Shown in pieces: positions 34,451-51,127 of a stretch of DNA of 64,000 nt (position 1 is the stretch's first letter; each line of letters begins with the position of its first letter). This DNA is from Burkholderia sp. Bp8992 (lineage in GTDB: Bacteria > Pseudomonadota > Gammaproteobacteria > Burkholderiales > Burkholderiaceae). The stretch spans positions 22,339 through 86,338 of the forward strand of contig NZ_QTQI01000032.1 in the NCBI RefSeq assembly GCF_003853705.1, given 5' to 3'. Both the position numbers and the translations under genes were made by a program. The notes below the pieces were generated by a model. It saw nothing but the letters and a program-made list of their open reading frames with translations. It did not search any database and was not told the DNA's origin.

Positions 34451-34640
34451 TCAATCGAAATACGTGAACCCCATCGCACTCTTCACGGCCACGAGCGTCG
34501 CGCTTGCCACTTCCCGTGCATGCAACGTGCCGCGCTTCGCGATCGCCTTAACTTCGGCCTCGTCGGCCTTGCCCCGGCGGCGGCGCGCGCGGACCGGCCC
34601 GATCAGCGCACGCTTGACGACGCGGTCGCTGGCCGCCGAG
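34451..34640 (-). pseudogene. trpS 3'-end fragment (left boundary of catabolic island)
   Basis: The minus strand here reads [20 protein letters not shown] and EVASATLVAVKSAMGFTYFD and then a stop. This is clearly the C-terminus of tryptophanyl-tRNA synthetase: intact trpS ends [20 protein letters not shown] and [15 protein letters not shown]. Upstream, SDRVVKRALIGPVRARRR matches another part of trpS but lacks about nine intervening residues. The last 110 bases are about 86% identical to 50114-50223. It has no start and no synthetase core. With intact trpS at 50.1 kb in the same orientation, it brackets the island. Confidence 0.82.
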
Positions 34641-34690
34641 CCCCTGCCCGGAATCGACGAGACGGATCTGACGAGGAGTGGCCGAACGCA

Positions 34691-35467
34691 TCAATCCCGA
34701 TACGACGGCTCCTCGACGTCCAGGATGCGCTTCATCTCGTCGAAATGCGCGATCGAGAAGTCACGGAATCCTTCCCAGTCACGCGCGGTCTTCTCGGCCA
34801 CTTCGTCGGACAGCACATTGATCGGCTTGCCGGTCGCGTACGCGTTGACGAGGATCCGGCACGCGCGTTCGAGCGTGTACATGTCGTCGAACGCCTCGCC
34901 GACTGTCGGCGCGGTCACCAGTACGCCGTGATTGCCCATCAGCAAACGGGACTTGTCCTTGAGCAGCGACACGAGGCGGGCGCCTTCGTCTTCGGTATCC
35001 GCCATTCCCGAGAATGCGGTGTCCAGCGCGACACGATTGAAATAACGGGCGGTGTTCTGTTCGATGGGCAGGATGGTCGGATCGGACAACGTCGAGATCG
35101 CAGTGACATGGACGGGGTGCAGGTGCATGGCGACGCGCACATGCGGCAGTTGCTGGTGCAACTGGCCATGGATCGCCCATGCGGTCGGATCGACGCTGCC
35201 GTTTTCGAGGCTCGAACGATCGTCGGCGTCCAGCAGAACCAGGTCGCTCGCGCGGATCCGCGAGAAGTGCATCCATTTGGGGTTCATCAGGAAGTGACGG
35301 CCGTCGTCGGAAACGGCGACGCTGAAGTGGTTCGCGACCGCTTCATGCATGTCGAGGCGGGCGAAGCAGCGGAAAGCGGCGGCGAGATCGGTGCGAAGCT
35401 GGGTTTCGTTCATGTCGAGGTGCGTGAGCGGAAGCGTGGGAAACGGGGGCGCCGGCCGCAGGTTCAT
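34691..35467 (-). CDS. Class II aldolase/adducin-family protein
   Basis: 258 aa. Zn-binding class II aldolase features are present: ANHFSVAVSDD, MNPKWMHFSRI, HLHPVHVTAIS with two metal-ligand histidines (about 120-122), and the later GNHGVLVTAPTVGEAFDDMYTLE with a third. The family includes fuculose-1-phosphate aldolase, ribulose-5-phosphate epimerase and various decarboxylases, so the reaction here is undefined. It is the last gene of the island, 80 bases after the GlnQ-like ATPase gene. ATG at 35413 is an alternative start. Confidence 0.85.
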   Translation of the reverse strand: MNLRPAPPFPTLPLTHLDMNETQLRTDLAAAFRCFARLDMHEAVANHFSVAVSDDGRHFLMNPKWMHFSRIRASDLVLLDADDRSSLENGSVDPTAWAIHGQLHQQLPHVRVAMHLHPVHVTAISTLSDPTILPIEQNTARYFNRVALDTAFSGMADTEDEGARLVSLLKDKSRLLMGNHGVLVTAPTVGEAFDDMYTLERACRILVNAYATGKPINVLSDEVAEKTARDWEGFRDFSIAHFDEMKRILDVEEPSYRD

Positions 35468-35547
35468 GGTTGGCCGCAGGGATTTGTCGAAAGGGTTCGA
35501 CCAGTCGGGCGGCCGAGCGCCGGCCACGCCGCGATGCATCGACCCGC

Positions 35548-36438
35548 TTACTGCCTTGGGGCGGTCGATCCGTCCGCGTCGGCCGTCGCGTCGTCCGAGT
35601 GCCAGAACGCGTTGCGGTCGCGGTAGTTCTGCAGGAACTGCTGCAGCCGGGGATTCGTGGAACGGCGGAACACCTCGCCCGGCGCGCCGCTCACCGCGAT
35701 CCGGCCATGGTCGAGAAACACGACGCGATCGGCCATCTGGGCGGCGAAACCCATCTCGTGCGTGACGACGACCATCGTCATCCCGTCGCGCGCGAGCTGC
35801 TTCATGACCTGCAGCACTTCGCCGACGAGTTCCGGGTCCAGTGCGGAGGTTGGCTCGTCGAACAGCATCAGGTTCGGCTCCATCGCCAACGCGCGGGCGA
35901 TCGCCACGCGCTGCTGCTGGCCACCGGACAGTTTCGACGGATGGGCATCCGCCTTGTGGGACATGCCGACCATGTCGAGCATGCGGCCACCGATGGCATC
36001 CGCCTCGGCACCGGGCAGGCGGCGCACCCGCCGCAGCGCTTCGGTGACGTTACCGAGCACGCTCATGTGCGGCCACAGGTTGAACTGCTGAAACACCATG
36101 CCGATGTTACGGCGCACGCGGTTGATCTCGGCGCTCGACGCGCGCACGCGTACGCCGTTGCGTTCGACATAGCCGAGCATCTCGCCGCCGATCCGGATCT
36201 CGCCGTGATCATAGGTTTCGAGGGCGGCCATGCAGCGCAGCAGCGTGCTCTTGCCCGATCCGGACGGACCGATCAGGCAGACCACTTCGGATTTCGCGAT
36301 CGACACATCGATTCCGCGCAGCACATCGGTATCGCCAAAACGTTTGTGCAAACCCCTGACTTCGACGAGCGGCGTTGCGGACGCCGGCGCGAGCGTGGCG
36401 GCGGGTACGCTTGCGGGGATGGCGCTGACTGCGTTCAT
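35548..36438 (-). CDS. Polar amino acid ABC transporter ATPase (GlnQ-like)
   Basis: 296 aa. Walker A GPSGSGKS (about 60-67), Q-loop [16 protein letters not shown], signature [15 protein letters not shown], Walker [15 protein letters not shown] and H-loop [10 protein letters not shown] are all intact. A 25-residue Ala/Pro N-terminal extension and a polar C-terminal tail are extra. The matching binding protein and two permeases are at 47.8-50.0 kb, 11 kb away on the other strand. A GCATAGG box at 36543-36585 shared with that operon supports the pairing. Confidence 0.9.
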
Positions 36439-36542
36439 GATGGCCTCGATCAGTTCCGGTCATCGTGCCGTCATCGCCTGGGTCAGGCGACGGGCGCAAT
36501 GCAAGTTCGATGAGCCGACTTTACGTGGTCAATATTGATCGG

Positions 36543-36585
36543 GGAAAAACTCTTTTCGAATGCGATTCGCAAGTTTTTCCTATGC
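36543..36585 (-). promoter_or_regulatory. GCATAGG-type regulator box upstream of GlnQ-like gene
   Basis: On the minus strand it reads GCATAGGAAAAACTTGCG followed by GCATTCGAAAAGAG and TTTTTCC. It closely matches the box upstream of the Rieske operon (46501-46543). It ends 105 bases before the ATPase start codon. Proposed as a binding site of the island LysR protein (inference). Confidence 0.6.
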
Positions 36586-49353: not shown

Positions 49354-49380
49354 CGCGTCAGTGGCTTGCCGGAGATCCCC

Positions 49381-50043
49381 ATGCTGACTTTCCATCCCGA
49401 TGTACTCGTGAACAACCTGCCGGAGATCGGTGCGGGTCTCGCGATGACCGTCGCGACCTGGGCGGCGGGTACGCTCGCCGGGGCCGCGATCGGTTTCGGT
49501 GCGGCGCTCGCGCAGCAGGCGGGCGGCCGCTTCGTACGCGCGGCGATTCGCGTCTATGTCGAGCTGTTTCGCGGCACGCCGTTTCTCGTGCAGCTCTTTC
49601 TGCTGTACTACGGCGGCCCGGCATTCGGCTTGACGCTCGATCCGTTGACGGCAGGTGTGGTCAGCCTTGCGCTCTATGCGGGCGCCTATTTCACCGAGGC
49701 ATTTCGTTCCGGATTCCTGGCCGTGCCGAAAGGGCATGTCGAAGCGGCATCCTGTCTCGGCCTGAGCCGCTGGCAAACGACCTTTCGCGTGCAATTGCCG
49801 CAGATGATGGTGCTGATCCTGCCGGCGCTGACCAACCTGACCATTGTGCTGAGCAAGGAAACCGCGGTGCTGTCGATCGTCACCGTACCGGAACTGACAT
49901 TCGTGCTGACCGGTATCGGCTCGGCGAGCTTCGCGTTCGTCGAGACATTGCTCGCGCTATCCGTGTGTTACCTGTTGCTTGTCGAAATCGCGACGTGGGC
50001 GGGCACGGTGGTCGAGCGGCGCGTCGCGCGTCGGCTTGCATGA
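49381..50043 (+). CDS. Polar amino acid ABC permease (HisM/HisQ-like)
   Basis: 220 aa with five predicted membrane helices. Motifs are YVELFRGTPFLVQLFLLYYGGP and the EAA loop GHVEAASCLGLSRWQTTFRVQLPQMM. CGGAG precedes ATG at 49381. It is the last gene of the right-hand operon and is convergent with trpS. The ATPase for this transporter is not in the operon; the GlnQ-like gene at 35.5 kb is the likely partner. Confidence 0.91.
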   Translation: MLTFHPDVLVNNLPEIGAGLAMTVATWAAGTLAGAAIGFGAALAQQAGGRFVRAAIRVYVELFRGTPFLVQLFLLYYGGPAFGLTLDPLTAGVVSLALYAGAYFTEAFRSGFLAVPKGHVEAASCLGLSRWQTTFRVQLPQMMVLILPALTNLTIVLSKETAVLSIVTVPELTFVLTGIGSASFAFVETLLALSVCYLLLVEIATWAGTVVERRVARRLA

Positions 50044-50070
50044 TTCGGTACATGTCATCGTTCAGAGCCA

Positions 50071-50101
50071 GCGTGCATGGCGTGGTGAGAGCCATGCACG
50101 C
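50071..50101. terminator. Hairpin between convergent permease and trpS genes
   Basis: Perfect 11-base stem GCGTGCATGGC (50071-50081) / GCCATGCACGC (50091-50101) with a 9-base loop. It sits between two convergent stop codons, as a bidirectional terminator would, though no long T-run follows. A decayed version (TGCATTG / CAATGCA) occurs beside the trpS remnant at 34411-34435. Confidence 0.5.
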
Positions 50102-50113
50102 CGGCATTGCCGC

Positions 50114-51127
50114 TCAATCGAAATACGTGAGCCCCATCGCGCCCTTCACCTCCGCGAGCGTCGCGCCTGCCACTTCCCGCGCGTGCAGCGTGCCGCGCTT
50201 CAGGATCGCCATCACCTCGGCCTTGTCGGTCTCGAACTCGCGGCGGCGCGTGCGGATCGGCTCGATCAGCGCCTGCAGCCGCTCGTTCAGCACGCGCTTG
50301 ACGACGCTGTCGCCGAGGCCGCCGCGGCGATAGTGGGCCTTCAGCTCGTCGACCTTCGCGACGTCGGGCTCGAACGCATCGAGGAACGTGAACACGACGT
50401 TGCCCTCGACCTGGCCCGGGTCGCTCACGCGCAGGTGGTTCGGGTCCGTGTACATGTCCTTCACGGCCTGAGCGATCTCGTCCGGCGTCGAGCCGAGCGT
50501 GATCGCGTTGCCGAGCGACTTGCTCATCTTCGCCTTGCCGTCGATACCCGGCAGCCGCGTGACCGACGACAGCACGGCCTCGCACTCGACCAGCACCGGC
50601 TGCTCGACGGTTGCGTTGAAGCGGCGCACGAGTTCGTTGGTCTGTTCGATCATCGGGAGCTGATCGTCGCCGACGGGCACGTGCGTCGCCTTGAATGCGG
50701 TGATGTCGGCCGCCTGGCTCACCGGGTAGGTCAGGAAGCCGGCCGGAATGTCGCGCTCGAACCCGCGCAGGCGGATCTCTTCCTTGATGGTCGGATTGCG
50801 TTCGAGGCGCGCGACCGTGACGAGGTTGAGCAGGTATTGCGACAGCTCGGCGAGTTCGGGCACCTGCGACTGCACGACGATCGTCGAGATCGCCGGATCG
50901 ATGCCGACCGCGAGATAGTCGAGCGCGACCTCGATCACGTTCTCGGTGACGCGCTGGCGGCGGCCCATGTTGTCGGTCAGCGCCTGCGTATCGGCGAGCA
51001 GCAGGAATTGCGTCGCTTCGTGCTGCATCTGCACGCGCGCACGCAGCGAGCCGATGTAGTGGCCGAGATGCAGCGGGCCGGTCGTGCGGTCGCCGGTGAG
51101 GATGATCGGGCGGGTGGGTTGCGTCAT
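50114..51127 (-). CDS. trpS: Tryptophanyl-tRNA synthetase
   Basis: 337 aa, class I synthetase of the short bacterial type. The HIGH-equivalent motif is in [14 protein letters not shown] (about 17-27) and the KMSKS loop is [14 protein letters not shown] (about 190-203). It charges tRNA-Trp. The gene is preceded by a Trp attenuator at 51188-51298 ending 60 bases before the ATG. Its 3' end marks the right edge of the catabolic island, and a decayed copy of that end lies at 34451-34640. Confidence 0.96.

Follow-up and report, generated by a model that had tools for sequence, protein, structure and literature searches.

How did a set of catabolic genes come to lie between an intact trpS gene, encoding tryptophanyl-tRNA synthetase (TrpRS), and a decayed copy of the 3' end of that gene? 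The question is raised by a 64,000-nucleotide stretch of Burkholderia sp. Bp8992 DNA (contig NZ_QTQI01000032.1, positions 22,339 to 86,338; hereafter the window), in which the two trpS sequences enclose an island of transporter and catabolic genes. The original prediction, made from the sequence alone, had taken this arrangement for an insertion at the 3' end of an essential gene. We give an even chance to the reading that the stretch from the bestrophin gene to trpS, on a large extra replicon, serves as an integrase-free hotspot for cargo, which is brought in by trpS-anchored recombination and displaces the old copy. The reading is built on an insertion relative to related loci, cargo that is unlike between genomes, decay in place, and trpS duplicates of varying extent. 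Genus-level DNA comparisons took in 65 Burkholderia genomes, and the locus itself was compared in a set of 54, the window and 53 others (49 genomes and four plasmid records). The downstream DNA compared was 152 bp in G010, 632 bp in G080, and at least 9.7 kb, up to 22.8 kb, in every other locus.

The decayed trpS 3' end

Self-comparison of the window detected one strong repeat at the claimed ends of the island, between 34378-34609 and 50042-50272 (80.7% identity, E 2e-53), with a local alignment score of 248 against 35 or less in 200 composition shuffles. This bears out the predicted trpS 3'-end remnant on the same strand as intact trpS. Its ungapped coding part, 34451-34609, matches the 3' end of trpS at 84.3% identity (E 7e-46), slightly below the 86% first given; after a deletion, the match to trpS is resumed for 28 bp (34611-34638), bringing the remnant to the predicted length of about 190 bases. 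The hairpin copy expected just past the remnant is present, but its fold is weaker than that past intact trpS (Table 1).

The nature of the sequence changes was tested by codon position, using the consensus of 40 intact trpS genes as the reference. The remnant differed from the consensus at 24 of 159 bases, distributed 10/7/7 over codon positions 1/2/3, whereas the 40 intact genes gave 75/16/322 in sum (Fisher p 1.2e-6, a rough value because intact genes share history). By itself the remnant fits the expectation under no selection (p 0.83). The even spread over codon positions therefore indicates that its divergence arose after loss of function. From the sequence, the remnant is judged to have decayed in place and to be old rather than imported; of the two origins offered at the outset, an old event stands, and a copy from another species was rejected on the codon-position test. 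The divergence of the remnant, 15%, exceeds the trpS third-position distance to the nearest relatives, 8.9-11.5%, which suggests an old event as a rough sign only, third positions being themselves constrained.

Insertion relative to related loci

The prediction that relatives without the island should have the STM2901-like region next to a single trpS 3' end was confirmed in four genomes. For G024, one alignment runs from window position 24542 to 34609 (90.5%) and continues into one intact trpS. For G012, G043, and G076, one-piece alignments from about 33313-33343 to 34609 (75.7-83.3%) likewise lead into a single trpS; the corresponding region of G006 was aligned in two pieces with a gap between. 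The distance from the STM2901-like end to trpS is 299-326 bp in G024, G012, G043, and G076, and that to the remnant is 301 bp in the window, indicating that the remnant stands where an uninserted locus has its trpS 3' end. By these alignments, the island is an insertion relative to its relatives. The arrangement that was to speak against insertion, two trpS copies without cargo between them, was encountered in none of the 53 other loci within the downstream DNA compared. In G016 (locus L114), G053 (L116), and G014 (L118), the VOC gene lies between trpS and the STM2901-like region, an order swapped relative to the window and G024.

Unlike cargo and trpS pieces at the same site

Both the bestrophin gene and trpS were located in 41 of the 54 loci, including at least two near-duplicate pairs (G044 with B. 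arboris, and G058 with B. cenocepacia CMCC(B)23006). The interval between the two genes ranged from 170 bp (G056) to 17,319 bp (the window), with conserved flanks and variable content. G003, of which the contig matches B. territorii LMG 28158, carries 11.4 kb of cargo followed by a 113-bp trpS 3' piece, which shares 78.9% identity with the intact trpS of this genome and abuts the VOC gene. In Burkholderia sp. BCC0506, efflux-type genes are followed by a second trpS around an internal deletion, retaining 302 bases at the 3' end (91.7%) and, of the upstream flank, 183 bases (92.3%), and the intact trpS is followed by a VOC-end piece. In the window, G003, and BCC0506 alike, the cargo lies 3' of the intact copy and 5' of the decayed copy; an orphan old trpS 3' end beyond the cargo was observed in the window and G003, and the duplicated pieces end at different places in different genomes. 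G054 and G005 share their cargo at 94%. Other trpS-like matches in the locus survey (G071, G006 in inverted orientation, G064, and G023) were taken as noise. Among the cargo open reading frames (ORFs) scanned in the window, G003, G054, and BCC0506, and among six ORFs of G064, no integrase or transposase was found.

Two of these cargoes contain gene sets of interest in themselves. In G003 (L122), positions 5165-11482 encode a 2105-residue protein that combines kinase, DUF4011, helicase, and MTES_1575 nuclease domains (best PADLOC model PDC-S37), which adjoins 4Fe-4S/radical-SAM-like and AAA ATPase genes and looks like a defence system. In G064 (L106), positions 9355-14945 hold a pyrrolnitrin-type cluster, including two tryptophan-halogenase-family proteins, PrnB, and a Rieske protein. 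That a pathway consuming tryptophan lies close to a spare TrpRS gene could be a coincidence or could give a clue to the retention of this gene; a literature search pairing pyrrolnitrin with trpS yielded nothing relevant.

In addition to the 3' remnant, a probable vestige of the trpS 5' end, covering codons 5-16 or so, was detected at the start of the VOC gene. The DNA search for this vestige covered 42 loci and found it in six, and G021 has it additionally by protein and local alignment. The best matches were those of G053 (98 bp, E 4e-15), G014 (98 bp, 3e-9), and G024 (45 bp, 9e-7). The weaker ones (G066, 2e-5; the window, 1e-4; BCC0506, 2e-4) are counted because they fall at the same place, and that of the window rests on its orthologues. 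Shuffles for this search kept composition only, and the observed score of G066 was reached in 0.2% of them. Matches with E values of 2e-4 to 0.05 in G058, G079, G054, G059, G001, G022, G044, G064, G005, G017, and others were treated as noise.

The intact trpS encodes a second TrpRS

The 3' end of trpS was matched by DNA in 57 of the 65 genomes, weakly in eight of the 57 (E 8e-21 to 3e-35), and not in the remaining eight. We then compared TrpRS proteins in 16 selected genomes, namely all eight without a DNA match and eight with one. A separate TrpRS of about 40% identity to the window's enzyme was present in all 16. The window's own enzyme was found at 96-99% protein identity in the eight genomes having the DNA match and as a 72% relative in G050, which has no DNA match; seven of the 16 possess neither this TrpRS nor a close relative. 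Since another TrpRS exists in every genome tested and seven lack a close relative of this one, the 337-residue enzyme is, on sequence grounds, a second or spare TrpRS, and its gene is not the essential trpS that it had been taken for.

TrpRS was detected at E 1e-60 in 93 plasmid records. Four of these come from Burkholderia, all 0.85-1.26 Mb in size, and these four carry the close relatives of the window trpS; small records belong to other genera only, among the matches listed (40 of 93). These plasmid-record matches and the contig sizes make the third replicon (pC3) the probable location of the window. For strain H111, loss of pC3 was reported, citing others, to be without effect on growth, and for J2315, 12 essential genes were predicted on pC3, its dispensability being left open by the authors (PMC4993015). 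This replicon is often lost in adapted variants (PMC11925244).

Proposed mode of cargo gain

In the reading that we put forward, cargo would arrive adjoining an incoming trpS allele. One end of the incoming DNA would be anchored by homologous recombination, either within trpS or within the conserved upstream genes, and the other end would be joined at or close to the resident trpS with no need of long homology. That older trpS would be pushed outward, lose its 5' part or its function, and decay, and the copy by the upstream genes would stay intact. Such events may have generated the order in the window, which runs outward from the intact gene as trpS, island, 3' remnant, STM2901-like genes, VOC gene, and the probable older 5' vestige. 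We infer the anchored recombination, the order of events, and the origin of the vestige in an earlier round from the arrangement of these sequences.

Several observations weigh against this reading. In two B. cenocepacia-like loci, those of G058 and B. cenocepacia CMCC(B)23006, the island adjoins trpS, but the remnant is missing and an extra leader is present: the junction between the VOC end (window 33322) and 34691 spans about 44 bp, and a leader of about 95 bp (window 34316-34410) is retained beside trpS. A simple deletion of the window arrangement is not favoured as the source of G058, this trpS-side leader being absent in the window. The nearest flank relatives G079, G001, G078, and B. 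seminalis have neither remnant nor island; as decay of the remnant (24/159) exceeds the third-position distance of trpS to such relatives, loss or replacement must be assumed in them. G046 (L102) carries a Mutator-family transposase at 4244-5503 within the bestrophin-trpS interval, and the illegitimate nature of the joint at 34641-34690 is presumed. In trees, trpS of G054 seems to fall with the cenocepacia/seminalis set, and its flank groups with G005 (SH-aLRT support 99). By the approximately unbiased (AU) test, the flank data reject G054 with BCC0506 and CMCC(B)23006 (p-AU 3e-5), but the trpS data do not reject G054 within its flank clade (p-AU 0.41), and the G054 flank itself looks mixed near the VOC gene. 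After the AU test, the tree conflict of G054 was dropped as proof of recombination, and the negative outcome lowers the probability of anchored recombination and also that of the landing-pad reading given at the end.

The closest rival is site-specific integration into an attachment (att) site in the trpS 3' end, with a replacement 3' end supplied by the element, the remnant as the old 3' end, and the integrase later lost. In favour of this rival, the geometry fits, the remnant comprises a 3' end together with the hairpin, loci without the insert occur in relatives, and the arrangement recurs in G003, where the piece of the 3' end is shorter. The scanned cargo ORFs of the window, G003, G054, and BCC0506, however, hold no integrase, the duplicated pieces end at different places, and neither the upstream flank in BCC0506 nor the 5' vestige would be produced by 3'-end integration; G058 has the island and no remnant. 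When looked at for short identical att repeats, the repeat in the window was a decayed one of about 230 bp at 81%. Of the insertion at the trpS 3' end first proposed, the insertion thus stands, and its site-specific mode is doubtful in view of the absence of an integrase from the scanned ORFs, the varying piece ends, and the upstream and 5' material elsewhere. We regard a site-specific origin as possible, with roughly one chance in four, and less likely than anchored recombination.

The second copy in BCC0506, with both 3' end and upstream flank, could also be explained if trpS was duplicated in tandem and cargo was inserted between the copies later. Two copies without cargo were found in none of the 54 loci in the DNA compared, and three unlike cargoes lie between the copies in three genomes, so that a cargo insertion would be needed after every duplication; we consider this origin unlikely. 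Direct repeats around the cargo, as in the window, G003, and BCC0506, would likewise result from a single crossover in trpS with circular DNA carrying trpS and cargo, followed by decay of the outer copy. The sizes of the four Burkholderia plasmid records with TrpRS, described above, do not suit such a donor, small ones being from other genera only among the matches listed, and the VOC-end piece after the intact copy of BCC0506 points to a donor allele from this very locus, leaving this course quite improbable.

Comparison with known systems

Gene hotspots have been described in which no mobile element is recognisable and recombination takes place at the core genes that flank them (Oliveira et al. 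2017, PMC5635113). The present site resembles them in its conserved flanks, unlike cargo in each genome, and lack of integrase in the scanned cargo ORFs, and differs in its position next to a spare aminoacyl-tRNA synthetase gene and in the fossils that it retains, which are duplicated fragments of the flanking gene; by analogy, recombination in flanking genes would account for the turnover of cargo. Arrays of displaced type VI secretion effector-immunity and Rhs genes were attributed to homology-facilitated illegitimate recombination (Kirchberger et al. 2017, PMC5361080). There, as presumed here, the old 3' part becomes an orphan when it is displaced outward by an incoming allele with a presumed homologous anchor at one end, and the same process may account for the orphan trpS 3' ends; unlike in those arrays, the putative anchor is a housekeeping-type gene and the orphan decays.

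Integration into the 3' end of a protein gene is represented by two elements. The element e14 integrates in the 3' end of icd. SGI1 does so in the 3' end of trmE (PMC8409611). As in both cases, the gene is completed here at one end of the insert and its old 3' end is left at the other; unlike them, the site has no integrase in the scanned ORFs, has pieces with varying ends, and has 5' and upstream material duplicated in related loci. The literature matches listed on island sites and tandem accretion contain nothing on trpS.

Genes and composition of the island

Features of the window are listed in Table 1. The cargo may serve uptake and oxidative breakdown of a nitrogen-containing compound. 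In line with the original prediction, in which no integrase was noticed inside, none of the island ORFs scanned against Pfam matched an integrase or transposase family. A phage-integrase family gene with DUF3701 is located outside the island at 8329-10140; its block also aligns in G022, G021, B. pyrrocinia LWK2, and partly G018, none of which has the island there. As a separate observation, an 804-bp direct repeat (96.4%) links 20602-21405, within a GntR/aminotransferase gene, with 63197-64000, which reaches the window end.

Table 1. Coordinates and assignments of the features in the window
Feature	Position	Strand	Basis or remark
Probable trpS 5'-end vestige, codons ~5-16, at VOC gene start	32805..32839	-	82.9%, E 1e-4; alone close to noise
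VOC family gene	32828..33295	+	Named from aligned B. pyrrocinia BX1 gene
DUF1493 (STM2901-like) gene and neighbouring ORF without Pfam match; outer neighbour of remnant	33324..34147	-	PF07377 for 33324-33767
Weakened hairpin copy past remnant	34400..34453	-	Fold -16.6 kcal/mol, z -2.8
Decayed trpS 3' end: 159 bp ungapped, deletion, ~28 bp	34451..34640	-	DNA alignment; no codon-position bias
Island common to G058 and B. cenocepacia CMCC(B)23006, ~93%	34691..50052	.	Alignment
Class II aldolase; stop codon is outer boundary of island	34691..35539	-	PF00596; NF005689 above cut-off
ABC transporter ATPase	35548..36438	-	PF00005
M20 family ArgE-like amidohydrolase	36680..37867	-	PF01546; NF005710 above cut-off
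DUF1028 protein	37857..38534	-	PF06267
RidA family protein	38536..38985	-	PF01042
Flavin-dependent oxidoreductase	39041..40504	-	PF13738; TIGR04046 below its cut-off
Polyamine-type ABC transporter: two permeases, binding protein, ATPase	40798..45249	-	
Rieske oxygenase alpha subunit	45287..46435	-	PF00355, PF00848
LysR regulator	46538..47563	-	
Amino-acid-type ABC binding protein and two permeases	47729..50043	+	
Strong hairpin just past intact trpS	50071..50101	-	Fold -33.1 kcal/mol, z -5.2 (50060-50116)
Intact trpS, second TrpRS, 337 aa	50114..51127	-	PF00579; TIGR00233 above cut-off

The island had been described as one gene set for a single purpose, which is only partly right, its joined modules occurring separately elsewhere. 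A Rieske-LysR probe matched seven of the 65 genomes at E 1e-60 or better, adjoining trpS in G058 (94%) and lying in other places in G049, G060, and G075 (79-80%); among the 65, the island stands beside trpS only in G058. In G049, window 40814-50021 is represented in pieces within 11 kb. At least 80% of the island is contained in one plasmid record, and across the family the Rieske-LysR part had matches at E 1e-150 in 67 of 299 genomes. The M20-DUF1028 genes have a relative, mostly 76-79% identical, in 48 of the 65 genomes (G058's own island counted), and in 35 of the 48 it lies 5' of trpS on the same contig, 3-33 kb away and in opposite orientation. This 5'-side version was not found in the examined 5' stretch of the window, G058, CMCC(B)23006, BCC0506, or G054. 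Transfer of the M20-DUF1028 operon by inversion, from the 5' to the 3' side of trpS, was rejected, since the orientation of trpS is kept and the versions are only about 77% alike. A literature search pairing DUF1028 with RidA found nothing. Taken by its sequence matches, the island looks composite.

Biological meaning

At one site on a large Burkholderia replicon, next to a spare tRNA-synthetase gene, the cargo differs between genomes and includes catabolic and efflux genes as well as defence-like and pyrrolnitrin-type ones. The notion that the gene at this site is the essential trpS is corrected. The island was probably brought by ordinary DNA recombination, and the presence of a decayed gene end next to an island does not necessarily point to an integrase that was lost. 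Remnants of trpS would offer a means to order and roughly date gene gains. A bolder view, which we hold only tentatively, is that the spare trpS acts as a landing pad that renews itself and needs no integrase. With every round of gain, a fresh trpS would come to lie beside the upstream flank and its predecessor would persist as a fossil; the series of 5' vestige at the VOC gene, 3' remnant, and intact gene may then form a layered record of successive gene gains on the extra replicon of the cepacia complex.

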